Source of the DNA: Desulfobacterales bacterium
GTDB lineage: Bacteria; Desulfobacterota; Desulfobacteria; Desulfobacterales; SpSt-501
Assembly (NCBI GenBank): GCA_030834695.1
Contig: JAUQXK010000077.1
Location: forward strand, 1-54,673
Direction: 5' to 3'
DNA length: 54,673 bases
Positions 25,780 to 40,632 of this stretch are shown here, in pieces. Positions within the stretch are counted from its first letter, which is position 1. Every line of letters begins with the position of its first letter. The notes under the pieces are model-generated. The model was given only the letters and a program-made list of their open reading frames with translations, ran no database searches and was not told where the DNA came from. The position numbers were made by a program, and so were the translations under genes.

Positions 25780-26880
25780 CTAATAGGAAAACGGCCACAG
25801 GTTGAAGTAGTTCTTGGTCTGCCACCAGCGGTAGGCCAGGCCGTTCGGCTCGAAGATCATGAACGCGCAGATGGCCAGACCGAAGGCGGCTTCCTTGATG
25901 AAGAGAAAATCCATCAGCAGTTTGGGATAGCTGGCGGCCAGGGGAATGACGGCCATCTGCAGCAGCTCCATGACCACCACCATGAAGATGGAGCCGAAAA
26001 TCGTGCCGTGGATCGACCCGACCCCGCCGATGAGGATCACCCCCACCAGCCACAGCGACCAGAACCAGGGGAAATGCTCCGGGCTGATGGCCGCCAGGTT
26101 GCTGATCCAGAAGGCGCCGGCCACCCCTCCGATGAAGCCGGCCACGAAGAAGGCGAACAGTTTGTACTGCACGACGTTGATCCCCATGACTTCGGCGGAG
26201 ATGTCGTTGTCGCGGATGGCCACCCAGGCCCGTCCGACCCGCGAACGGAGCAGGTTGAGGACGGCCGCAGTCAACACGATCACCAGCGCGATCATCATGT
26301 AGTAAATCTTGAGGTCGCTGTCGATCACCCAGGGGCCGATCTTGATGGTCCCCGGCGGAAGCGAGAACGCCTGACCGCGGCCGCCGATCTGGCTGATGTA
26401 CTGGGTGATCACGAAGTCCACCGTGATGAACTGGGCCGCCATGGTGGTCAGGATGAGGTAGAACCCTTTGACCTTCGCCGACGGCAGGCCGAAGATCACG
26501 GACCAGATACCGGCCGCTACGGCAGCGATGAAAATGCTGAGCGGATACGCCAGCCCCAGATCCAGCAGCAGCTTCGGCCAGGGAAATTCAAGGATCAGGA
26601 GCGTGCTGGTGTAGGCACCCACCGCCAGAAACGCCGCATGTCCCAGCGTGACTTGACCGCAGAAGCCGATCAGCAGCTGCACTCCCAACGCGCCGAGGGC
26701 GGTGTAGCCGATCTGGTTGCAGACGCTGAGCCAGTACTCGTCGGCCACGTAGGGGATGCCGATGAACAGCATCAGCATGAGCGCAATCATTTTGCCCTTG
26801 ATGAATCGGGTCTGCCACCAAGCGTGGTCTTCGTGGTAGTTCTGGTGGTACTCGCCGCAGGGTAAAAAAGTCGTAGACAT
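25780..26880 (-). CDS. livM: ABC transporter permease (LivM type)
   Basis: The protein has 366 residues with about eight to ten hydrophobic segments. The family motif GFCGQVTLGHAAFLAVGAYT is present, and RVGRAWVAIRDNDISAEVMG is the cytoplasmic coupling region that contacts the ATPase. GGVGSIHGTIFGS lies near the C-terminus. It forms the inner-membrane channel with LivH. The gene lies between the LivH and substrate-binding-protein genes, all leftward. Confidence 0.92.
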   Translation of the reverse strand: MSTTFLPCGEYHQNYHEDHAWWQTRFIKGKMIALMLMLFIGIPYVADEYWLSVCNQIGYTALGALGVQLLIGFCGQVTLGHAAFLAVGAYTSTLLILEFPWPKLLLDLGLAYPLSIFIAAVAAGIWSVIFGLPSAKVKGFYLILTTMAAQFITVDFVITQYISQIGGRGQAFSLPPGTIKIGPWVIDSDLKIYYMMIALVIVLTAAVLNLLRSRVGRAWVAIRDNDISAEVMGINVVQYKLFAFFVAGFIGGVAGAFWISNLAAISPEHFPWFWSLWLVGVILIGGVGSIHGTIFGSIFMVVVMELLQMAVIPLAASYPKLLMDFLFIKEAAFGLAICAFMIFEPNGLAYRWWQTKNYFNLWPFSY

Positions 26881-26888
26881 ACGTCGCT

Positions 26889-26985
26889 TTGCTCCGGTTT
26901 TAAGTTTTAAGTTTTAAGTTTTAAAAATAAAGATTGAAATCCGCCGCTTAACACTTCGCACCTAAAACTTAAAACTGGTTTTAAA
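26889..26985. repeat. Heptad-periodic inverted intergenic element (8)
   Basis: The left part reads GTTTTAA GTTTTAA GTTTTAA GTTTTAA, four exact 7-bp units. The right part CTTAACACTTCGCACCTAAAACTTAAAAC is its diverged reverse complement. It separates LivM from LivH, genes that normally work at equal level. Confidence 0.75.
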
Positions 26986-27865
26986 CTCGTTCGATCCGCT
27001 CCCATCCCCAAATGCCGTAAGGCTTCCAGAGCAGGAAGACGGCCATGAAGGCAAAGGGGGCGATCTCCTTGACGCCGCCCGGGAAAAACTGGTCCAGATA
27101 GGCGCCGCAGAAGTTCTGCAGCACTCCGATGATGACCCCGCCCAAAATGGCGCCGGGCACCGAGTTCAAGCCTCCCAGCACCACCACGGGCAAGACCAGC
27201 AGCCCGAGATAGGCCACCGAGATGTTCAGGCCGTTGATGTTGCCGAGCAGGGTCCCGCCCACACCGGCCGCCATGAAAGCGATGGCCCAGGCCGCAGCGT
27301 AGACATAGCGTGCGCTGACGCCCAGCGACAGGGCCGCCATCTCGTCGTCCGCAGTGGCCTGCATGGCCAGCCCCCAGCGGGTGTACTTGAAGAAGCACAC
27401 AAAGACCACCAGCAGGATGATGGCGGCCATGAAGCTCCACAGGTACACGCTGCCGATGATGATCGGCCCGAAGCGAATGGGCTCGATGGAGAATACGGGC
27501 GGTGAAAAGACGCGGGTGTCGGTCCCCCAGATGAACTCCAGCGTGCCCTTGAAAAAGAAGGAAAGCCCCACCGTCACCATGATGACGGTCAGGACCGGCT
27601 CGCCGATCAGACGGTCGAGGAAGATCCGCTCGACGAGTATGCCCAGGATGAACCCAATGACCAGCATGATCAGAAGCGATGCCAGGAAGGGGATCCCCAT
27701 GGAATAAAAGCTCAGCGACACGTAGGCGCCGATCAGGGTCATCTCGCCCATCGCCAGGTTCAGCACGCCCGAGCACTTGTAGATCAGCACCCAGCCCAGC
27801 GCCACCAGAGCGTAAATGCCGCCCACCATGATCCCGGTGGCCAACGTCATCAGTATCAGGTCCAT
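26981..27865 (-). CDS. livH: ABC transporter permease (LivH type)
   Basis: The protein has 294 residues from the ATG at 27865, which follows ACAGGAGAACG; the long upstream extension of this frame overlaps the ligase gene and is discarded. About eight membrane segments are seen. Family motifs are GGIYALVALGWVLIYKCSGVLNLAMGE with the downstream Gly-rich GGLNSVPGAILGGVIIG. RWGLAMQATADDEMAALSLG is the coupling segment. It pairs with LivM to form the pore. Confidence 0.92.
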   Translation of the reverse strand: MDLILMTLATGIMVGGIYALVALGWVLIYKCSGVLNLAMGEMTLIGAYVSLSFYSMGIPFLASLLIMLVIGFILGILVERIFLDRLIGEPVLTVIMVTVGLSFFFKGTLEFIWGTDTRVFSPPVFSIEPIRFGPIIIGSVYLWSFMAAIILLVVFVCFFKYTRWGLAMQATADDEMAALSLGVSARYVYAAAWAIAFMAAGVGGTLLGNINGLNISVAYLGLLVLPVVVLGGLNSVPGAILGGVIIGVLQNFCGAYLDQFFPGGVKEIAPFAFMAVFLLWKPYGIWGWERIERV

Positions 27866-27897
27866 CCGTCGTTCTCCTGTCGCAGCAAGCCGGTCAA

Positions 27898-29850
27898 TTA
27901 CTCCGGAATCGAAATAATGCGCATATCGGTGACGATGTGCGCCTGCCGGCCGTCTTCGTATTTGATGAGGGTGTCGATGTGAACGCTTTCCTTCTTCGAA
28001 TACAGAGCCTCCACGATCTCCTTGTAGCGCTTTTCCACGAAGGCCCGGCGCAGCTTGCGCGTGCGGGTCAGCTCGTCGTCGTCGGCGTCGAACTCTTTGT
28101 AGAGATTGGTGAACTTGCGGATCTTGGCGACATCCGGCAGGTCCTTGTTGGCCTGGCGGATCTGCTTCTCCAGGAGTTCGTACACTTCGGGCATCTGGGA
28201 AAGTTCCTGGTAGCTCGTGTAGTTGAGCTTGCGCTGATCGGCCCAATTGCTGACCACCGAATAATCGATGCACATGACCGCCGAAAGAAAGTCCCGCCGG
28301 TCGCCGATGACCCAGGCATCTTTGATATAAGGGCTGAATTTCAACCGGGTCTCGAGGTATTGCGGCGCGAAGGGCCGGCCGTCCTTCAGGGTGAACACGT
28401 CCTTGGTGCGGTCGAACACCACCAGGTGCCCGTCGTCGTCCAAGAACCCCTTGTCGCCGGAGTAAAGCCAGCCGTCCTTGAGGGTCTTTTGGGTGGCCTC
28501 CGGGTTCTTGTAATAGCCCTTGAACACCGACGGGCTGCGGGTGAGGATCTCGCCCTCCTCGTTGATGCGCACCTCGGTGCCGGGAATGGGGTGGCCGACG
28601 GTGTCGAATTTGATATCGCCGCTGCGGTGCACCACCGAGATCCCGGCCACCTCGGTCTGCCCGTAGATCTGCTTCAGGTTGACGCCCAGGGAATGGAAGA
28701 AACGGAAATGGTCCGGGCCCATGGCGGCGCCGCCGGTGTAGGCGTTGCGCACCCGGCTCATGCCCAGATGATCCTTCAGCTTCTTCTGCAGCGTAGCATA
28801 GGCGATCCCGTGCAGCAGCCGCCAGTGCAGGGGAACCCCCTTCTTCGAGAACTTCAGGTCCGCGTAGTGGTAGCCGACCCAGGTGGCGAACTTGAAAAAC
28901 ATGCGTTTCAGCCAGCTGGCGTCCAGGTATTTGACCTGCACCGTGCGGGTCATCTGTTCGTACATGCGCGGCGGCGCGAACATGACGTGGGGGCCGATCT
29001 CACGGATGTTCTCCTGGGAGGTTTCCGGCCCTTCGGGGAAGTTCAGCGTATAGCCGATCTGCAGACCGCATGAGATGGACATCATCTGCTCGCCGATCCA
29101 GGCAAACGGCAGATAGGACACGTAGTCGTCGGCTTCCTGGCAGGGGTCGATCTCCATCAGGTGCTGGCCCATGGAGAGCATGTTGTGATGCGAAAGCAAG
29201 GCCCCCTTGGGCAGGGCCGTGGTGCCGGAGGTGTAGAAAAGCAGGGCGATCTCCTCGCCGTGGCCTTTCTGAATGAGTTCGTCGAAAAGGCTGGGCTTTT
29301 CCTTCTCCAGCTCGCGGCCGAGCTGCTGGACCTCCCGGAGGCTGATCAGGCAGTCCTGCTGGTAGTGCCGCAGTCCTTTGGGGTCGTCATAGATGATCTT
29401 CTTGAGCTTGGGGCAGTCCTTCATGATGGAAAGCGCTTTGTCGACCTCTTCCTGGCCTTCGCCGACCAGGAATTTGGCATCCGAGTGGTCGACGATGTAG
29501 CGCACTTCGTCCATCAGGCAATCCTGGAAGAGCCACACCCCAACCCCGCGGCTGCACAGGGCCGCCATCTCCGCCATCAGGCCCTCGGGCCGGTTGTCGC
29601 CGATCATGGCGACCTTGTCGCCCTCCTGCAGGCCGAGTTTAATGAGGCCCAGGGCGATATATTTCACGGTCTCAAAATAGCCCTGCCAGGTGATGGGACG
29701 CCAGATCCCGAACTCTTTCTCCCGCATGGCGACGCGGTCCTTGCCGTAGCGCTTGGCCTGCTGGTAAAAGAGCTTGGGGATCGTGAGCTCCCGTGAAATT
29801 TCCGCCTTTTGTGACTCCGCCGCAGCGATCGTTTTATCTCCGTGTGGCAT
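27898..29850 (-). CDS. Long-chain-type acyl-CoA synthetase (AMP-forming)
   Basis: The protein has 650 residues, the length of FadD15-type synthetases. The P-loop is FYTSGTTALPKG, followed by IYGQTEVAGIS, YSGDKGFLDDDGHL and VFDRTKD. Near the end LTRTRKLRRAF supplies the conserved Lys, so unlike the ligase at 21296 this enzyme looks fully active. It activates a carboxylic acid to its CoA thioester with ATP. Its gene overlaps livG by 17 bases and precedes livH by 32, so import and activation are tightly linked. The substrate is not evident from sequence. Confidence 0.9.
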   Translation of the reverse strand: MPHGDKTIAAAESQKAEISRELTIPKLFYQQAKRYGKDRVAMREKEFGIWRPITWQGYFETVKYIALGLIKLGLQEGDKVAMIGDNRPEGLMAEMAALCSRGVGVWLFQDCLMDEVRYIVDHSDAKFLVGEGQEEVDKALSIMKDCPKLKKIIYDDPKGLRHYQQDCLISLREVQQLGRELEKEKPSLFDELIQKGHGEEIALLFYTSGTTALPKGALLSHHNMLSMGQHLMEIDPCQEADDYVSYLPFAWIGEQMMSISCGLQIGYTLNFPEGPETSQENIREIGPHVMFAPPRMYEQMTRTVQVKYLDASWLKRMFFKFATWVGYHYADLKFSKKGVPLHWRLLHGIAYATLQKKLKDHLGMSRVRNAYTGGAAMGPDHFRFFHSLGVNLKQIYGQTEVAGISVVHRSGDIKFDTVGHPIPGTEVRINEEGEILTRSPSVFKGYYKNPEATQKTLKDGWLYSGDKGFLDDDGHLVVFDRTKDVFTLKDGRPFAPQYLETRLKFSPYIKDAWVIGDRRDFLSAVMCIDYSVVSNWADQRKLNYTSYQELSQMPEVYELLEKQIRQANKDLPDVAKIRKFTNLYKEFDADDDELTRTRKLRRAFVEKRYKEIVEALYSKKESVHIDTLIKYEDGRQAHIVTDMRIISIPE

Positions 29851-30679
29851 ACAGGTCCTCTTCCCCCAGATAAGCCTTGATCACTTCCGGGTTGTTCTGC
29901 ACTTCCTGCGGGGTTCCATCCATTATCATGTTGCCGAAATTGAGCACGAAGACTCGGTGCGACAGGTCCATGACCACCCCCATGTCGTGCTCGACGAGCA
30001 GACAGGTGATGTTCCAGCGTGGATCCTCGTTGACGTCCAGAACAAACCGGGCCATGTCTTCGGTTTCTTCCAGGTTGAGGCCGGCCAGCGGTTCGTCGAG
30101 GATCAGCAGGTCCGGCTTTAAAGCCAGCGCCCGGCCCAACTCCACGCGTTTCTGCAGACCGTAAGGCAGCATGCCGACCGGCTTATGACGAATATGCTCG
30201 ATCTCGAGCAGGTCGATGATCTCCTCTTCGATGAACTGACGGTTTTCGATCTCCTCCCGCGCGGTCTTGCCTGCGTAGATCGAGCCACTCAGGATCCCGG
30301 ACTTCAAGTGGATGTGGCGACCCAGCCGGATGTTGTCGAGCACCGTCATGCCGCCGAACACCTCCACTTTCTGGAAGGTCCTGGACATGCCGCGCACCGC
30401 CCGTTCGTAGGGTCTGACATCGTTGACGCGCTCGCCCTTGAAATGAATTTCGCCCTTTTGTGGCCGGTACAGCCCGCTGATGCAGTTCATCATGACGGTT
30501 TTGCCGGCGCCGTTGGGGCCGATGACGGAGTGGATCTCTCCCCGGCGAACCCGAAGGCTCGCCCCGGCCAAAGCGGCCACCTTGCCGAAGTACATGGCCA
30601 CGTCTTTCAATTCGAGAATGACGTCGCTTTCTTGAACTGCAGCTGCTCCTCCCACAGATTCCCTCTCCCTTCCCGCCAC
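29834..30679 (-). CDS. livG: Branched-chain/HAA-type ABC transporter ATPase (LivG type)
   Basis: The protein has 281 residues from a GTG at 30679; the first 16 residues are not conserved-looking and a later start is possible. Walker A is GPNGAGKT, Walker B LLILDEPLAGLN and the switch His is in LLVEHDMGVVMD, as expected for LivG. The signature segment is weak (MLPYGLQKRVELGRAL in place of LSGGQQ), a common LivG variation. It is the first gene of the leftward transporter cluster, preceded by an AT-rich promoter region. Confidence 0.9.
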   Translation of the reverse strand: MAGRERESVGGAAAVQESDVILELKDVAMYFGKVAALAGASLRVRRGEIHSVIGPNGAGKTVMMNCISGLYRPQKGEIHFKGERVNDVRPYERAVRGMSRTFQKVEVFGGMTVLDNIRLGRHIHLKSGILSGSIYAGKTAREEIENRQFIEEEIIDLLEIEHIRHKPVGMLPYGLQKRVELGRALALKPDLLILDEPLAGLNLEETEDMARFVLDVNEDPRWNITCLLVEHDMGVVMDLSHRVFVLNFGNMIMDGTPQEVQNNPEVIKAYLGEEDLYATRR

Positions 30680-30851: not shown

Positions 30852-32438
30852 CTATTTTTCGACACTCAGCAAATAAGAGCGTAAATTTTTTTTGCTCTTG
30901 CGCAAACCCAGCTTGGTGCGGATGTTGTGCCGGTGGAAGAGGATGGTGTTCTTCGAGAGAAGGAGCACTTCGGCGATTTCCTTGTTGGTTTTGCCCTCCC
31001 GGACCAGGTTCGCCACCCGGATCTCGGTGGGAGTCAAATTGCAGATGCGGGCAGAGAGGTGGCTGGTGAAGGGCGAAATAATGTTGTTCAGGTTGCTTTC
31101 CAGGATATCCACCAGGGTTTTTTGCACCGCCGCCAGCCGGCCTTTCTTCAGCCGGTCCAGATACGGCCCGATGAGTTCCCGGACGTTCGAGGTCACGATG
31201 GCCCCCAGCTCCTTTTTGTCGTCTTCACGTTGTTTGAGCAGCACGCGCAAGGCCGTGTTGACTTCCTCCAGATGCAGGGACTGGGCTTTGAGCTCCTTTT
31301 CACGTTTGCGCAGCTCGGCTTCGGCCCGTTTGCGGTCCTCCACCTCCTGGGCCAGCTGGGAGTTGGCTTTGGCCAGCTCCGCCGTGCGCTCGGCCACCCG
31401 CTCACCCAATTGGCTGTGGTATCTCAACAATTCGCGCTCGGCGTTTTTTTGGGCACTGATGTCGCGCAACGTGACGATGTTGCCGGCAGGATTGCCTTTT
31501 TCATCAAAATAAAGAGTCGAACTCAGCTGCACATCCAACAACCGGCCGTCCCGGGTCAAGCGCTTGGTTTCGAACAGATGGATTTTCTGGCCGCTCAGCA
31601 TGCTTTCAATCGCCTCGCGGGTTTCCGGCCAGCTTTCCTCCGGCACGAAGTCGATGTTCTTGCCGATCAGCTCCTCGCGGCGCAGGCCGAAAACCTGCTC
31701 GAAGGCGGGGTTCACATAGACCGCCTCGCCCTGCAGGTTGTAGACCACGATCGGGTCGGGAGAGGACTCGAGCAGCAGGCGATAGCGCTCTTCGCTCTTG
31801 CGCAGGACCTCCTCCGCGCGTCGGCGCTCGGCGAGCTCCCAGCGGGCGTCGGTATAAAGCTTCGCTTTGTCGAGGGCGATGGTGGCGAGTCCTGCAAAGC
31901 GTTCGAGCGCCGCCACATCCTCATCACGAAAGCTTTTGGCGGCCTCGACGTGAGCCAGGCCGATGACGCCCTCAACCCGCCCCCGGTACTTCAGCGGGAT
32001 CCCCACGATGGAACGCAGCGAGTCGAAGCTCTTGCCGCTCAGCCGGCCGCTCCAGGCGCGATAATCGTCTACCCGCAGAACGGCTTCGCTTTGCCAGACC
32101 TTGCCTCCCAGACCCTCGCCGGGCGATACCCGCAGCCCGATCTGGCTCTTGAAAAAACCCATCCCCACCCGCATCTGCATGGCACTGGCATCGGGCTCCA
32201 GCAGGTAGATGTAACCGTGGGCGGTGTCGGTCAGCAAAGCGGCCTTCTGAAGAATGGCTTCGAGCAGTTCTTCCTTGTCGAGGCGGTCGATCAGTCCGAG
32301 GGAGGTTTCGTGGAGCGCGGAAAGGTGCTCATTGCGACGGCGCAGCACGGAAATCTCCTCACGCAGGCGGGCGAGTTCTCCTTCCGCTTCCTGCATCAGG
32401 CGCCGCTGAGCGATTTCTTCCGCTGGCGTGACCGGCAC
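30852..32438 (-). CDS. GAF-PAS sensor with LuxR-type DNA-binding domain
   Basis: The protein has 528 residues from a GTG at 32438, with no membrane segment. A short coiled coil opens the protein. A GAF domain covers about residues 45-195 (PGEGLGGKVWQSE, SIVGIPLKYRGRVEGVIGL), and a PAS domain about 215-330 (SSPDPIVVYNLQGEAVYVN). A long coiled coil follows. The C-terminal LuxR helix-turn-helix spans about 465-525 (LTPTEIRVANLVREGKTNKE, then NTILFHRHNIRTKLGL). It is a one-component cytoplasmic sensor and probably controls the liv cluster next to it. No phosphoacceptor domain is present. Confidence 0.9.
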   Translation of the reverse strand: MPVTPAEEIAQRRLMQEAEGELARLREEISVLRRRNEHLSALHETSLGLIDRLDKEELLEAILQKAALLTDTAHGYIYLLEPDASAMQMRVGMGFFKSQIGLRVSPGEGLGGKVWQSEAVLRVDDYRAWSGRLSGKSFDSLRSIVGIPLKYRGRVEGVIGLAHVEAAKSFRDEDVAALERFAGLATIALDKAKLYTDARWELAERRRAEEVLRKSEERYRLLLESSPDPIVVYNLQGEAVYVNPAFEQVFGLRREELIGKNIDFVPEESWPETREAIESMLSGQKIHLFETKRLTRDGRLLDVQLSSTLYFDEKGNPAGNIVTLRDISAQKNAERELLRYHSQLGERVAERTAELAKANSQLAQEVEDRKRAEAELRKREKELKAQSLHLEEVNTALRVLLKQREDDKKELGAIVTSNVRELIGPYLDRLKKGRLAAVQKTLVDILESNLNNIISPFTSHLSARICNLTPTEIRVANLVREGKTNKEIAEVLLLSKNTILFHRHNIRTKLGLRKSKKNLRSYLLSVEK

Positions 32439-32476: not shown

Positions 32477-32489
32477 GGCCTCAGACGCG

Positions 32490-32708
32490 TCAGGAACCCC
32501 CGTCGAAGCCGATGGTCACCTTCCCGTCTGCGACAATGACCGGTACACGCCGCTGACCGGCCGAGTGTTTCAGCAGGTCGGCCATGCCGGCCTCGTCCTT
32601 AAGGACGTCCACGAATTCCACTGAATGACCTTTCCGGGCATAAGCTTCACGAGCCGCCTGCGTATAGGGTCACGTGTCTTTGCCGAAAATCTGCACGGTA
32701 TCGGCCAT
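32490..32708 (-). CDS. UXX-star-type selenoprotein (glutaredoxin-like), Sec encoded by TGA
   Basis: Reading the minus strand from ATG 32708, preceded by AAGGAGAGGG, gives 72 residues to a TGA stop at 32490, if the TGA at 32672-32670 is read as selenocysteine at residue 13. The product begins MADTVQIFGKDTUPYTQAAR and later has VPVIVADGKVTIGFDGG. UPYT replaces the CPYC redox motif of glutaredoxins, and the later VPVIV strand matches the thioredoxin-fold cis-Pro region. I recall the same pattern in the UXX-star (seleno)protein family of anaerobes. A SECIS-like hairpin follows the TGA. A redox or thiol role in the cytoplasm is likely; the partner is unknown. Confidence 0.85.
32626..32672 (-). promoter_or_regulatory. 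SECIS-like element of the selenoprotein gene
   Basis: The mRNA from the UGA can fold with an outer stem UGACC/GGUCA, an inner imperfect stem AUACGC/GCUUAU or an apical stem GGCU-CGUGA-AGCU. The apical loop begins 18 bases after the UGA and has G as its second base. Both features fit the known bacterial SECIS rules. Confidence 0.6.
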
Positions 32709-32763
32709 ATCCCTCTCCTTAATTGTTGTGCGGGCTCCAGTGAACTACCAGCGGTTTGCAGCC

Positions 32764-32857: not shown

Positions 32858-33142
32858 GTGGAGGCGGCACTCTCCGTGGGTCTCACGCGCGACGTCGTGC
32901 TGGTCAATGAATTAGGGCTGCATGCGCGCTCGGCAGTCCAGATTGCCCGCATCGCGAAGACCGCCCGCGGCGGGGTGTGGATCCTGCGCGCGGCAGAAAG
33001 GGCGGACGCGGCTTCCGTCATGGACGTCTTGACGATAGCCTGCGGGAAGGGCTCCATTTTGACGCTGGCCGTCGACGACCCGCAGGATGCTCCCGTTCTC
33101 GACGCACTGGCCGGTCTGGTTGAAAGCGGTTTTGGGGAATAG
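32858..33142 (+). CDS. HPr-like phosphocarrier protein
   Basis: The protein has 94 residues from a GTG at 32858, with AAAAAGGA upstream. The phospho-acceptor His22 lies in LGLHARSAVQIA, and Ser53 in ASVMDVL lies 31 residues later, the spacing of His15 and regulatory Ser46 in classical HPr. It passes phosphate from enzyme I, encoded next, to a partner. No sugar-specific EII is in the window. It could act on an unlinked permease or in regulation. Confidence 0.88.
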   Translation: MEAALSVGLTRDVVLVNELGLHARSAVQIARIAKTARGGVWILRAAERADAASVMDVLTIACGKGSILTLAVDDPQDAPVLDALAGLVESGFGE

Positions 33143-33148
33143 CGGCAG

Positions 33149-34921
33149 ATGCAAAAATTAGGCAAGGAAGAAATCGTCTTAAAAGGAATCAACGCCTCCG
33201 CGGGCATCTGCATCGGCAAGGCCTATCTGATGGACCGCGGCGGGGTGGACGTCATCGCACGCTACCCGATCGCCGAAAAAAGCATCAAGAGCGAAGTCAA
33301 GCGGTTCAAGTCGGCCGTCCAGAACGCCAAATCAGCGCTTCGAACCATCATCGAAAACAGCCCCCGCGAGGTTCAAAAGGCGACCATCCTGGAAACCCAG
33401 ATGGCGCTGTTGAACGACAAGATGTTCTATGGGCGCACCATCGAAACCATCGAGAAGGAGCGCGTCAATGCCGAGTGGGCATTGAAGTCGGTGGCCGGCC
33501 GGATCAAAACCGCTTTCCAGGAGATGCCGGATGCCTACATGCGCGAACGCGTGGCCGATATCAGCCACGTTTCGGACCTGGTGATGCGCAATCTGATCGG
33601 GGTCGAAACGCAGGACATCGGTCAGATCGATAAGCGCGTCATCCTGGTGGCCCACGACCTCTCGCCGGCCGATACCAGCCAGATCAATCTCGAGCGGGTC
33701 AAGGGGTTTATCACAGACCTGGGCGGCAAGACGTCCCACACCGGCATCATCGCCCAGACGCTGGAAATTCCCGCGGTGGTCGGGCTGGAGATCGCCACCC
33801 AATCGATCCGGAGCGACGACGTGATCATCGTCGACGGCACCGCCGGTTCCGTCGTCGTGCATCCGTCCGAAAACACCCTGCTGGAATACGAGGAACGTCA
33901 GGCGAACTACGAGCGCTACAAGTCGGTGATAACGCGCGAAAGCCACCTCAAAACCGAAACCACCGATCGCCGGCATTTCGACGTGCTGGCCAACATCGAG
34001 TTTCCGGAAGAGGTGGTTTCCGCCATCAATTACGGTGCCGCCGGCATCGGGCTGTACCGCACCGAGTTTCAGTATCTCGGGCGGACCGTGTTCCCGTCCG
34101 AAAACGAACTGTTCGAAAACTACCGCGACGTGGTCGAGGTGATGGCGCCCCGGCCGGTCATCTTCCGCACGCTGGACATCAACGGCGACAAGGCCATCCA
34201 TTCCGCCGCCAGCCACGACGAGCAGAACCCCGCCCTGGGACTGCGCGCCATCCGCTATTGCCTGAGACGACCCGAGGTCTTCAAGACCCAGCTGCGGGCC
34301 ATCTTAAGGGCGGCCGCCTTCGGCAACGTGCGCCTGATGTTCCCTCTGATATCCGCTTTCTTCGAAATCCAGCTCGCCAAGAGCTTCCTGGACGATGCGG
34401 CCGCTTCCCTCGCAAAAGACGGCCTGCCCTACAAGCGCGACATCCCCGTGGGGATCATGATCGAAGTCCCGGCCGCGGTGATCATCGCCGACCTGCTGGC
34501 CAAGGAAGTCGACTTCTTCAGCATCGGCACCAACGACCTGATCCAGTACGGGCTGGCCATCGACCGCGGGAACAAACAGGTGGCCCACATGTATCAGCCG
34601 CTCGACCCGGCCGTGATCCGCATGATCAAGCACACCGCCGACGTCGCCCGGGCCAACCGCATCCCGGTTCACATGTGCGGAGAAATGGCCGGCCGTCCCC
34701 TGCATGCCCCGCTGCTGCTCGGTCTCGGCTTGAACGAACTGAGCATGAACCCGCAGGCCATCCCGCTGGTCAAACGCATGATCCGATCCATCAGCCTGGC
34801 CGATTCCAAAAAAGTAGTCAAAAAGGTTTTGGGCCTGCGGACCGCGCGCGAAGTCTTCGAAGTTCTGCGCGACTCTTTCGGCGAGCTGGTGGCCAACCAC
34901 CGCCGCGATATGCATACCTGA
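33149..34921 (+). CDS. ptsI: Phosphoenolpyruvate-protein phosphotransferase (PTS enzyme I)
   Basis: The protein has 590 residues, the standard length of enzyme I without an added GAF domain. The active His197 is in GGKTSHTGIIAQ. The PEP-binding barrel shows GIGLYRTEFQYL, IFRTLDINGDK, FFSIGTNDLIQYGLAIDR and Cys510 in HMCGEMAG. It autophosphorylates from PEP and donates to HPr. It begins seven bases after the HPr gene, and its TGA overlaps the ATG of smpB (TGATG), so the three genes are co-transcribed. Confidence 0.94.
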   Translation: MQKLGKEEIVLKGINASAGICIGKAYLMDRGGVDVIARYPIAEKSIKSEVKRFKSAVQNAKSALRTIIENSPREVQKATILETQMALLNDKMFYGRTIETIEKERVNAEWALKSVAGRIKTAFQEMPDAYMRERVADISHVSDLVMRNLIGVETQDIGQIDKRVILVAHDLSPADTSQINLERVKGFITDLGGKTSHTGIIAQTLEIPAVVGLEIATQSIRSDDVIIVDGTAGSVVVHPSENTLLEYEERQANYERYKSVITRESHLKTETTDRRHFDVLANIEFPEEVVSAINYGAAGIGLYRTEFQYLGRTVFPSENELFENYRDVVEVMAPRPVIFRTLDINGDKAIHSAASHDEQNPALGLRAIRYCLRRPEVFKTQLRAILRAAAFGNVRLMFPLISAFFEIQLAKSFLDDAAASLAKDGLPYKRDIPVGIMIEVPAAVIIADLLAKEVDFFSIGTNDLIQYGLAIDRGNKQVAHMYQPLDPAVIRMIKHTADVARANRIPVHMCGEMAGRPLHAPLLLGLGLNELSMNPQAIPLVKRMIRSISLADSKKVVKKVLGLRTAREVFEVLRDSFGELVANHRRDMHT

Positions 34922-36919: not shown

Positions 36920-36960
36920 GACAAGAGCCGGGTGCCGGATGTAGGGTGCTCGGCTCTTTA
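36920..36960. repeat. Heptad-periodic intergenic hairpin (9)
   Basis: AAGAGCCG and CGGCTCTT form an 8-bp stem. The loop reads AGCCGGG TGCCGGA TGTAGGG TGCTCGG, a 7-bp period. It lies in the same gap as the strong GC hairpin, before the LivH gene. Confidence 0.55.
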
Positions 36961-37046
36961 TGCAGGCCGAGGCCCGTCGTTTTCACGAGACTCGCCGGGC
37001 ACGCCCCTCCCAGGGAGGGGGAAAGCCACCGGAAGGATGTTATCCC

Positions 37047-38108
37047 ATGCTGCAACGCTTGAGAGAGCGAACATCGGCCACCGACGTCATCATGTGGCTG
37101 ATCGGCGCCGCGCTGATGACCCTGATCGTTTGGGGCTCGACCGCCACCCTGATCAAGGGCACCTATTCCGCCCGCCATTGGATTGATTTCGTCATCTTCG
37201 GCCTGGCCCAGGGCAGCATCTACGCCCTCATCGCCATGGGTTACACCATGGTGTACGGCGTGCTGCGCATGATCAACTTCGCCCACAGCGAGGTGTTCAT
37301 GAGCGGGCCCTATACGGCCTATTACTTCGCCGCCTATTTTTATCAAAGCGGGCTGCTGGAGTCCCATCCGGTCATTAGCCTCATCCTGGTTTTCCTGGTG
37401 TCCATGGCGACGTCGACCCTTATCGCTTTTCTCCTCGAGCGGATCGCCTACCGCCCCCTGAGAACGGCGCCCCGTCTGGTTCCCCTGATCACCGCCATCG
37501 GCGCGTCTTTTTTCCTTCAATACATGTTCCGCGGATTCTTCGGCTCAGGGTTCCAGGCCTATCCGGTCATCAAGGCTCTGGAGGGTCAGTGGCTGGTCGG
37601 ACCGATGCGCATCCTCAAGTTTCAGGCGCTGGTCATCGCGGCGGCGGCACTCCTGATGGTCGCCCTCTACCAGTTCGTCCAGCGCACTCGAATCGGCAGA
37701 GCCATCCGCTCGGTTTCAGAGGACAAGGATGCCTCCGCCCTGATGGGAATCGACGTGGACCGAATGATCTCCATGACGTTCATCATCGGTGGCGCCGCCG
37801 CCGGCGCCGCCGGAGTGCTGTATGCGATCATGTTCAAACAAGTGCATTTCTTCATGGGCTTCATCCCCGGCATAAAGGCCTTCACCGCCGCCGTGCTCGG
37901 AGGGATCGGCAACATCCCGGGAGCCATGCTGGGAGGGATCTTCCTCGGTCTGGTTGAATCCGTCGGCCCCAGCCTCTTCTTGGACGGGCTGGGAATTGTC
38001 GCCCCCTACCAGTTGAAGGACGCCATCGCCTTCACCATGCTGGTGCTGGTGCTGATTTTCCGTCCGACGGGAATTTTAGGCGAACGTCTGGCTGTGAAAA
38101 AGGCTTGA
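37047..38108 (+). CDS. livH: ABC transporter permease (LivH type)
   Basis: The protein has 353 residues from the ATG at 37047, which follows GGAAGGAT. It is somewhat longer than usual because of an N-terminal extra membrane segment (IMWLIGAALMTLIVWGSTAT). Motifs are GSIYALIAMGYTMVYGVLRMINFAHSE, the coupling region RIGRAIRSVSEDKDASALMG and AVLGGIGNIPGAMLGG. Together with LivM it forms the inner-membrane pore. Confidence 0.92.
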   Translation: MLQRLRERTSATDVIMWLIGAALMTLIVWGSTATLIKGTYSARHWIDFVIFGLAQGSIYALIAMGYTMVYGVLRMINFAHSEVFMSGPYTAYYFAAYFYQSGLLESHPVISLILVFLVSMATSTLIAFLLERIAYRPLRTAPRLVPLITAIGASFFLQYMFRGFFGSGFQAYPVIKALEGQWLVGPMRILKFQALVIAAAALLMVALYQFVQRTRIGRAIRSVSEDKDASALMGIDVDRMISMTFIIGGAAAGAAGVLYAIMFKQVHFFMGFIPGIKAFTAAVLGGIGNIPGAMLGGIFLGLVESVGPSLFLDGLGIVAPYQLKDAIAFTMLVLVLIFRPTGILGERLAVKKA

Positions 38109-38130
38109 TGACAGGGGAAAGGATGGACGC

Positions 38131-39780
38131 ATGAGTCCAGCGCAAACACAAAGACTTCCCGGATTCCGGATGGGCCTGATCGGGGGGGTGTCACTGGTCA
38201 TTCTGGCCCTGGTCGGGATCGTCGAGGCTTTCAACGAACGCCAGATCATCGCCGATGTTATTTCGATGGGGCATACGTTGCTGCTGCTCACGGCGGTTTT
38301 CGTCGCCTATCTCACGGCAGCCAGGTCCCGAGACCTCGGAGCCGGCCGCTCGCTCGGCAATGTCCTCCTGGCGGGCCTGATCATGACCGGGATGCTCGCT
38401 GCACTCGTTCTGATCGGCCAGGCGCTCAACCTCCGGCAGGTGTTCATCAACGCCTCACCGACTCTTTACCAGATGTTGATTTTCCATCAGGAGAGCTTGG
38501 GGGTGGGAATCCTGCTGCTGCTGGGTTCGGGCCTGCTGATGGGCTTTTTGACCTCGCTCCTGCATTCCGCGCCCGTACCGTTGCGCCGGGTGCTCATCAT
38601 CGTGCTCATCAGCCTGGTCATCGGGGCGTTGCTTCAGGACCTGCTGCAGCCCATTTTCGGTCTCTGGGATCCCTTAACGACGATCGGCGAATGGGTTTTC
38701 GAAACGAGCGGCCTGAGCGTCCACGGAGCGATAACCCTGGCTGTCTTGGTTGCGGCCTTCGCCGCTCTCTGGGACCGGTATTCCCAAACGGTGCGCACGC
38801 AGATCCGCAGCCTGCCGTCGGAACGCCAGCGCAATCTGAAATGGGGGTCGATCATCGTTGGTCTTCTGGTGCTGCTGGTGCTGCCGAATCTCCTCGGGAT
38901 TTTTCTGAGCGAGGTGCTGACCATCATCGGCCTCTATGTGCTGCTGGGATTGGGGCTGAATATCGTCGTGGGCTTCGCCGGGCTGCTGGATCTGGGGTAC
39001 GTGGCCTTTTTTGCCATCGGCTCATACACGGTCGCCATTCTGACCTCTCCGGAGATCGGTTCGTATCAGATCGGATTCTGGCAGGCGCTTCCGGTGGCGA
39101 TCGTCTTCGGGACCCTGGCGGGCGCCCTCCTGGGCATCCCGGTGCTCAAAATGCGCGGCGACTATCTGGCGATCACCACCTTGGGTTTCGGCGAAATCAT
39201 CCGCATTCTGGTTCTGTCCGACGTCCTGCGTCCCTGGCTGGGGGGCGCTCAGGGCATTGCGCGCATCCCCAAAGCGTCGCTCTTCGGCTTTGAGTTTTCA
39301 GGCCCGCAGGAGATCTACTACCTGCTCATCGCCGGCTGCTTTCTCGTGGGATTCGTCTCCTGGCGGCTGCGGGATTCGCGCCTCGGACGAGCCTGGATGG
39401 CCATGCGCGAGGACGAGGACGTCGCCCAGGCCATGGGCATCAATCTCGTGAGCACCAAACTGCTGGCGTTTGCCACCGGCGCCGGCTTCTCGGCGCTGAG
39501 CGGGGCGATCTTCGCCACCAAACTCGGCTCGGTCTATCCCCACAGCTTCAATGTGATGATTTCCATTAACATTCTCTGCCTGATCATCGTCGGCGGAATG
39601 GGAAGCATGCCCGGCGTCATCGTCGGCGCCATCGCGCTGGTCGGAATGCCCGAGCTGCTGCGGGAGTTCGCCGAATACCGGCTGCTGATCTACGGTGCAG
39701 CCTTGGTGGCCATGATGCTGCTCAGACCGGAAGGCTTGTGGCCCGAGGCCATGCGCAAGCGTGAGCTGCACGAGGGATGA
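38131..39780 (+). CDS. livM: ABC transporter permease (LivM type) with long N-terminal membrane extension
   Basis: The protein has 549 residues, against roughly 300-420 for most LivM proteins. The C-terminal half is a normal LivM: GLNIVVGFAGLLDLGYVAFF, KMRGDYLAITTLGFGEIIRI, RLGRAWMAMREDEDVAQAMG and GGMGSMPGVIVGA. The first 250 residues add about six hydrophobic segments with no homology I can see to LivH or LivM. The extension is in frame with no break, so it is part of the protein. It begins 22 bases after livH. Confidence 0.9.
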   Translation: MSPAQTQRLPGFRMGLIGGVSLVILALVGIVEAFNERQIIADVISMGHTLLLLTAVFVAYLTAARSRDLGAGRSLGNVLLAGLIMTGMLAALVLIGQALNLRQVFINASPTLYQMLIFHQESLGVGILLLLGSGLLMGFLTSLLHSAPVPLRRVLIIVLISLVIGALLQDLLQPIFGLWDPLTTIGEWVFETSGLSVHGAITLAVLVAAFAALWDRYSQTVRTQIRSLPSERQRNLKWGSIIVGLLVLLVLPNLLGIFLSEVLTIIGLYVLLGLGLNIVVGFAGLLDLGYVAFFAIGSYTVAILTSPEIGSYQIGFWQALPVAIVFGTLAGALLGIPVLKMRGDYLAITTLGFGEIIRILVLSDVLRPWLGGAQGIARIPKASLFGFEFSGPQEIYYLLIAGCFLVGFVSWRLRDSRLGRAWMAMREDEDVAQAMGINLVSTKLLAFATGAGFSALSGAIFATKLGSVYPHSFNVMISINILCLIIVGGMGSMPGVIVGAIALVGMPELLREFAEYRLLIYGAALVAMMLLRPEGLWPEAMRKRELHEG

Positions 39781-39840
39781 AATCGAGGCGACCGACCGGA
39801 AGCGGCACCGGCGGCCGCATCCCGCAGATAGGAGAAGGAC

Positions 39841-40632
39841 ATGGCGGTAGTCACGATCAAGAAACTGGTTAAGCAGTTCGGCGGGCTGGTAGCCATCGAC
39901 AATCTCGACGTCGAGGTGCAGGAACTAAGCATCCACAGCATCATCGGTCCGAACGGCGCCGGCAAGACCACCGTGTTCAACTGCATCACGGGCTTCTATC
40001 GGCCGGAGGGCGGCGACATCCGGCTGGACGACCATTCCATGGTGGGGCTGCTGCCCGACCAGATCGTCCAGCGCGGGATCGCCCGCACCTACCAGAACAT
40101 CCGTCTGTTTCCCAACCTGACCGCCCTGGAGAACATCCTCGTCGGGATGCACAGTCACCTGAAGACCGGCTATTTCGGGATCGTGCTGAGCCTGCCGGCC
40201 ACCCGCCGTGAAGAAAAGGATGCCAGCGCGGAAGCCGTCAAACTGCTCAATTTCGTCAATCTGGGCGGCAAGGGCGATCTGCTGGCCAAGAACCTTCCTT
40301 ACGGCGATCAGCGCCGACTCGAAATCGGACGGGCGCTGGCCACCCGGCCCAAGGTTCTGCTGCTGGACGAACCGGCGGCCGGCATGAACCCCAAAGAGTC
40401 TCAGGACCTGATGGATTTCATCCGCCACCTGCGCGATAAAATCGGGATCACCATCATCCTGATCGAGCACCAGATGCGGGTGGTCATGGGCATTTCCGAA
40501 AAGGTGACGGTGCTCGACTACGGGAAGAAGATCGCCGAGGGAACCCCGGCCGATGTGCAGAGCAACCCGCAGGTCATCGAGGCCTATCTGGGTCGAGGCA
40601 GCTCCGTGCAGCAGACCTCCGCCGCATCTTAA
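39841..40632 (+). CDS. livG: ABC transporter ATPase (LivG type)
   Basis: The protein has 263 residues, with GGAGAAGG before the ATG. Walker A is GPNGAGKTT, Walker B VLLLDEPAAGMNP and the switch His is in ILIEHQMRVVMG. The region IARTYQNIRLFPNLTALENI is typical of LivG. The MITE-like element starts directly after its stop codon and separates it from the LivF gene. Confidence 0.93.
   Translation: MAVVTIKKLVKQFGGLVAIDNLDVEVQELSIHSIIGPNGAGKTTVFNCITGFYRPEGGDIRLDDHSMVGLLPDQIVQRGIARTYQNIRLFPNLTALENILVGMHSHLKTGYFGIVLSLPATRREEKDASAEAVKLLNFVNLGGKGDLLAKNLPYGDQRRLEIGRALATRPKVLLLDEPAAGMNPKESQDLMDFIRHLRDKIGITIILIEHQMRVVMGISEKVTVLDYGKKIAEGTPADVQSNPQVIEAYLGRGSSVQQTSAAS

Follow-up and report, generated by a model that had tools for sequence, protein, structure and literature searches.

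Gene and locus

The window analysed here, i.e., the whole stretch of 54,673 nucleotides from a Desulfobacterales bacterium (assembly GCA_030834695.1), contains on its minus strand a real but hidden gene of 75 residues, in which two UGA codons are very probably read as selenocysteine (Sec) (Table 1). The reading frame is MADTVQIFGKDT-U13-PYT ... GFDGGS-U73-RV-stop, with TGAs at codons 13, 73, and 76, and its tail is written TGA CGC GTC TGA, so that a C-terminal Sec, two residues, and a stop are present. From the ATG to codon 73 (32708-32490) the frame is open except for the TGA at codon 13. A first-pass annotation of this DNA had described the same well-started frame of 73 codons with a sole break, and direct reading agrees with it. 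It had also reported a strong ribosome site, which is found as AAGGAGAGGGAT at 32720-32709; similar purine-rich stretches precede the starts in relatives. The second TGA had been taken as the end of the gene, and this has to be corrected: codon 73 is assigned here as a second Sec codon, and the gene ends at 32481, giving 75 amino acids. The expectation that standard gene calling would miss the gene is partly out of date, since a curated family model is available at NCBI.

Table 1. Positions of the gene, its signals, its neighbors, and the decoding genes discussed in the text. Plain numbers are window positions; elsewhere, the contig or locus is named.
Feature	Position	Strand	Basis or remark
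Gene of UXX-star selenoprotein family 1, with 75 codons and a TGA stop, predicted Sec13 and Sec73	32481..32708	(-)	NF041114 match, translation, related loci with the same plan
Start codon ATG	32708-32706	(-)	Read directly
Ribosome-binding region AAGGAGAGGGAT, just 5' of the ATG	32709..32720	(-)	Sequence; starts of relatives
TGA codon 13, predicted Sec, UPYT active-site position	32670..32672	(-)	TGA 105 / Cys 51 in 156 distinct genes
TGA codon 73, predicted Sec, C-terminal U-x-x-stop	32490..32492	(-)	TGA at site 2 in 153/156
True stop TGA, codon 76	32481..32483	(-)	The nearest relative (L019) has TAG at the equivalent position
SECIS-like hairpin 1, within the coding sequence, loop CGUGA	32643..32655	(-)	RNAalifold, covariation, codon bias
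SECIS-like hairpin 2, wholly past the stop codon, UUCGGCU-GGA-AGCCGAA	32460..32476	(-)	Fold, strict-stem count, covariation
GAF-PAS-LuxR-type regulator, next gene on the strand	30852..32438	(-)	Pfam GAF, PAS, GerE
HPr-type phosphocarrier protein, divergent neighbor	32858..33142	(+)	PF00381, TIGR01003
Enzyme I (PtsI)-like gene, after HPr	33149-34921	(+)	Named from sequence, not by family search
selD genes with in-frame TGA at the Sec position (own genome, G000)	L045 = C65:4743-5663; L046 = C5:32516-33436		
Second UCA tRNA, selC*-type tRNA-Cys (own genome)	C11:4806-4897		8-bp acceptor stem, A1:U72, discriminator U73
selC*-type tRNA and second selB (own genome, contig C11)	L180:4806-6342		
selC*-type tRNA, second selB, and CysRS-like gene (congener G002)	L181:3721-7068		
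CysRS-like gene (congener G002)	L181:5758-7068		Named from sequence

Family membership and fold

The NCBI family model NF041114, with a curated cut-off of 72 bits, matches the 75 codons with 111.6 bits over profile positions 1-70 of 70. The 73 codons of the first-pass annotation alone score 108.5 bits and align as far as position 68 of the 70 in the profile, which is more than chance would give. The model corresponds to UXX-star family 1, listed in Table 1 of a 2026 review (PMC13188914) as 'Distant Grx-like protein 1', with a UxxT motif and two Sec. The window gene has the same properties, namely a full-profile match, two Sec, and the UxxT motif near the N-terminus, where the TGA of codon 13 provides the Sec of UPYT. 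The two-Sec composition of the family was, according to that table, already known, and the gene is another member of an already described family; nothing examined sets it apart from the other members. We infer that the name UXX-star refers to the C-terminal U-x-x-stop and not to the DTUPYT motif, because the NF041114 profile ends exactly two residues past the second Sec.

UXX-star families 2 and 3 and the HUGP/GUXX-star fusion share the fold and have overlapping profile matches with the window protein, but it stays below the cut-offs of NF041211 (51.0 of 100 bits), NF047338 (57.0 of 97), and NF045501 (37.8 of 325). Further UXX-star families have reportedly been described in an mSystems paper of 2025. 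Glutaredoxin (PF00462, matched with 46.1 bits for a cut-off of 22.9; E. coli Grx3) and NrdH-redoxin also have the same fold and active-site position. The window protein differs from glutaredoxin in having UPYT instead of CPYC and a chain that ends at residue 75 with U-x-x-stop, and the Grx-specific NCBIfam models score far below their cut-offs (GRX_bact 33 of 90).

An AlphaFold model of the protein (pLDDT 87.6, 27 sequences) has a glutaredoxin fold. Structure comparison places Grx and NrdH proteins closest, with Z between 8.6 and 9.8 and glutaredoxins on top; the absence of a structural match was not used to rule out any family. The structural alignments end at residue 71, leaving residues 72-75 outside. 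The predicted structure is a thioredoxin-like fold with the active site at the first helix. The first-pass assignment to a UXX-star selenoprotein with a glutaredoxin-like fold agrees with both the family model and the structure model; it was incomplete in that the second Sec had been missed.

The two sites in related genes

A total of 161 related loci were compared, the gene of the window included. The parser, which requires a tail with U, C, or S close to the end, recovered the same gene plan in 160 of them and failed in one. Left out of the counts were the locus cut by a contig end (L093) and four loci with coding DNA identical to others, which gives 156 distinct genes. The loci found with the family model are the 113 best-scoring ones from 58 relatives and 389 genomes of the class, and not all members; matches above the cut-off occur in 28 of the 58 relatives' genomes and in 171 of the 389 class genomes, two sets that overlap. 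The remaining 48 loci were collected with a search pattern that required Cys at the first site and, therefore, the count of Cys is not a natural frequency.

At the second site (codon 73 in the window gene) the codon is TGA in 153 of the 156 genes, Cys in two, and Ser in one, and never TAA or TAG. A stop lies exactly two codons further in 152 genes, and the complete arrangement of TGA, exactly two codons, and stop is found in 149, usually with the tail U-G-V or U-R-V. In the 153 genes that have TGA at the second site, the true stop is TGA 63 times, TAA 51 times, and TAG 35 times, with none in four, and three in-frame UGAs (Sec, Sec, and stop) occur in 39 of the 156 genes.

At the first site (codon 13) the codon is TGA in 105 genes and Cys in 51. 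Taken jointly, the two sites are TGA and TGA in 105 genes, Cys and TGA in 48, Cys and Cys in two, and Cys and Ser in one, so that Cys at the first site is mostly paired with Sec at the second (48/51). These counts indicate that exchange between Sec and Cys exists at the first site and not how common it is, because most of the Cys forms (47 of the 51) came from the Cys-requiring scan. The family model alone gives 109 distinct genes, of which 105 have Sec and four have Cys at this site, and the four duplicates that were dropped all have Cys. Judged from these counts, the C-terminal site varies less than the first one and is the most constant feature of the family (153/156 versus 105/156). In two relatives (L060 and L061) the C-terminal Sec is replaced by Ser or Cys, and both have Cys at the first site.

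Hairpins downstream of the two codons

The first-pass annotation had pointed to a hairpin after codon 13, with 18 nucleotides in between and a G in the first two loop bases. This hairpin is present: its stem has 4 bp, its loop starts 19 nucleotides after the TGA, and the G is the second loop base. RNAalifold on every second gene with TGA at the first site (53 of 105) gives exactly this 4-bp hairpin, unaided. The covariation is 0.392 versus 0.200 for shuffled alignments, with one slid control (+1 column) still at 0.284. Two of the four pairs never vary, and 239 of 500 shuffles reached as many pairs with double changes.

The wobble pair of this stem, made of two third-codon positions, is formed in 102 of the 105 Sec genes, where the make-up of the columns predicts a fraction of 0.80, and in 25 of the 51 Cys genes. 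With the Ala and the Glu held fixed, it is formed in 93 of 96 Sec genes versus 13 of 23 Cys genes. The Sec genes and the Cys genes are not of the same lineages and GC content, so that part of this contrast may be phylogeny. The Arg codon of the loop is CGT, CGG, or AGG in 104 of the 105 Sec genes, compared with 136 of 260 elsewhere in the same genes, and because Arg is written in this way the G of the loop is followed by U or G in the same number of genes (104/105). No stability above that of shuffled sequences was found when the 58 nucleotides from codon 13 were folded alone (z 0.37; 116 of 200 shuffles were at least as stable), a fold of 33 nucleotides shows a different hairpin, and a scan of 28 genes gave no energy excess at this site (mean -4.6 versus -4.8 for shuffled sequences). 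Covariation and synonymous-codon bias, and not energy, are what support this putative element.

The second hairpin lies beyond the stop codon, with its loop 21 nucleotides after the TGA of codon 73. A strict stem, defined as at least five pairs around a triloop located 17-24 nucleotides from the second-site TGA, is found in 119 of 153 genes; shuffled sequences have it in 11% of cases, and at a displaced position it is seen in 13 of 153 genes. The first loop base is G in 118 of the 119 stems. In the other 34 genes the strict stem is missing, and many of them look bulged or longer-looped, by unscored inspection. Genes without TGA at the second site give no discrimination as a control, two of the three (L060 and L081) also passing the strict-stem test. 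RNAalifold on every second family-model locus (54 of 108) gives a hairpin of six pairs, all six with changes on both sides, and the covariation is 0.465 versus 0.230 for shuffled and at most 0.187 for slid alignments. One of the two selD genes of the window's own genome can form a GGA triloop, likewise at +21, in folds of 33-45 nucleotides; this triloop is not present in the 60-nucleotide fold.

A hairpin supported by covariation thus follows each Sec UGA, and both are putative SECIS elements. Bacterial SECIS elements are placed within coding regions by the 2026 review, and a position beyond the stop codon is not stated in the passages of that review concerned (PMC13188914). A limited literature search on bacterial hairpins with C-terminal Sec found no paper, and a SECIS after the stop is not claimed here as unreported.

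Decoding machinery and readings of the UGA codons

The genome contains selA (615 bits), selB (375 bits), and a tRNA-Sec (75 bits, with G73). It also has two selD genes, which score 379 and 363 bits and both contain one in-frame TGA. Among the 58 relatives, selA is above the cut-off in 57 and selB in 50. The presence of selA, selB, selC, and selD had been anticipated by the first-pass annotation, which had also named, among the findings that would speak against Sec at codon 13, a genome without selenocysteine machinery and the absence of Cys homologues at this position in all relatives. The machinery is there and relatives with Cys at codon 13 exist (51/156), in support of Sec at this codon.

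A second system that reads UGA is found in the same genus, beside the canonical one. A layout of selC* tRNA-Cys, SelB*, and CysRS* has been described for Desulfobacterales and Syntrophobacterales in a review (PMC7609411), and the own genome resembles it in having a UCA tRNA with A1:U72 and U73 beside a second selB. This selB comes next after the tRNA on contig C11 and is 74% identical to that of congener G002, in which a CysRS-like gene follows. Mukai 2017 is said to be the source paper for selC*.

Given these genes, the selC*-type tRNA-Cys(UCA) with its own SelB could, at least sometimes, insert cysteine at one or both UGAs. The genus has the tRNA, the second selB, and the CysRS-like gene in the described layout, and Cys is a natural residue at both sites among the relatives. 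This reading is nonetheless quite improbable. The relatives' genomes were examined for a link of the family gene with the second SelB, and none was found: a second SelB is above the cut-off in five of the 28 gene-carrying genomes versus four of the 30 others, which argues that the gene is independent of the selC* system, and 23 of the 28 genomes with a family member have no second SelB above the cut-off. The hairpins are common to genomes without the selC* system, and canonical selA, selB, selD, and tRNA-Sec are present. No counterpart of the G002 CysRS-like gene was found in the own genome, where the two candidates are 37% and 29% identical, though contig C11 breaks inside selB*.

It is extremely unlikely that Sec is inserted at codon 13 only, with the TGA of codon 73 as the true stop of a 72-residue product. 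TGA is a stop by default, and NF041114 already scores far above its cut-off on 73 codons; its profile, however, runs exactly two residues further and the score rises when these residues are added. At a true stop, TGA, TAA, and TAG would be expected to replace one another, as they do at the third codon after the second site. The second site itself is never TAA or TAG, and for this reason codon 73 is not taken as a stop. The covarying hairpin after codon 73 also speaks against termination there. A decaying or chance frame that is not an expressed gene, which two in-frame TGAs in 75 codons might suggest, has next to no probability in view of the same plan above the cut-off in so many genomes of the relatives and of the class, and of the 83% protein identity to a congener in which both sites are intact.

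The decoding of both UGA13 and UGA73 as Sec is, on these comparisons, very highly probable. Sequence comparison supports the gene, both Sec sites, the tail, the two conserved hairpins, and a complete set of predicted Sec machinery, and the explanation as a whole, a single-domain selenoprotein of 75 residues with a glutaredoxin/thioredoxin fold and two selenocysteines, is highly probable.

Proposed decoding and chemistry

In the proposed mechanism SelB with Sec-tRNA-Sec would be recruited twice on one short mRNA. UGA13 would be served by the hairpin inside the coding region and UGA73 by the second hairpin, past the stop codon, after which the ribosome would read two codons and end at UGA76. The latter lies about 12 nucleotides before the loop of the second hairpin, versus about 21 for UGA73, and this spacing may be what makes UGA76 a stop. 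It is likely, in our view, that this single gene of 76 codons carries three in-frame UGAs that stand for Sec, Sec, and stop and are sorted by their distance to a hairpin, with the hairpin of the last Sec wholly outside the coding region.

The protein may act as a selenol oxidoreductase, in which Sec13, in a UPYT motif with no second Cys, would be the attacking residue, and Sec73 would be its partner in forming a diselenide or selenenylsulfide; the latter residue might take the role that glutathione or a second Cys has in glutaredoxins. This chemistry is put forward tentatively, at somewhat less than even probability. The main alternative is the binding of a metal or metalloid by the two selenols; metal ligands or unknown substrates are mentioned for the UXX-star family in the review passages (PMC13188914). 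A further idea, in a genus with a selC* tRNA-Cys and its own SelB, is that the same UGAs are filled with Sec or Cys according to the selenium supply. This is improbable; if true, the protein would be a switchable selenium/sulfur redoxin.

The analysis gives the right boundaries, and the second Sec, for a gene that ordinary stop-codon logic shortens. The comparison of the family makes it testable how SelB distinguishes a UGA for Sec from a UGA for termination that follows at a distance of nine bases, and whether a bacterial SECIS can act from beyond a stop codon. The change from Sec to Cys at the first site, with a presumed relaxation of the constraint on the hairpin, would offer a natural control for the prediction of SECIS elements inside coding regions.

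Genomic neighborhood

The neighbors give no clear function: HPr/PtsI, a LOG-like gene, and the LuxR-type regulator recur within the order, and other lineages have other neighbors. Among 98 long loci, HPr is near the family gene in 30, a PtsI-like protein in 29, and a relative of the LuxR-type regulator in 12, and the LOG-family-like gene, named by eye, recurs in 29 loci. In congener G002, a small C-GCAxxG-C-C-like protein, recognized by eye, is encoded directly upstream of the selC* tRNA (L181:2935-3495). The locus in the window is flanked by gene sets like those of branched-chain amino acid ABC transporters, named from their sequences, at 25780-30679 on the minus strand and at 36960-40632 on the plus strand.
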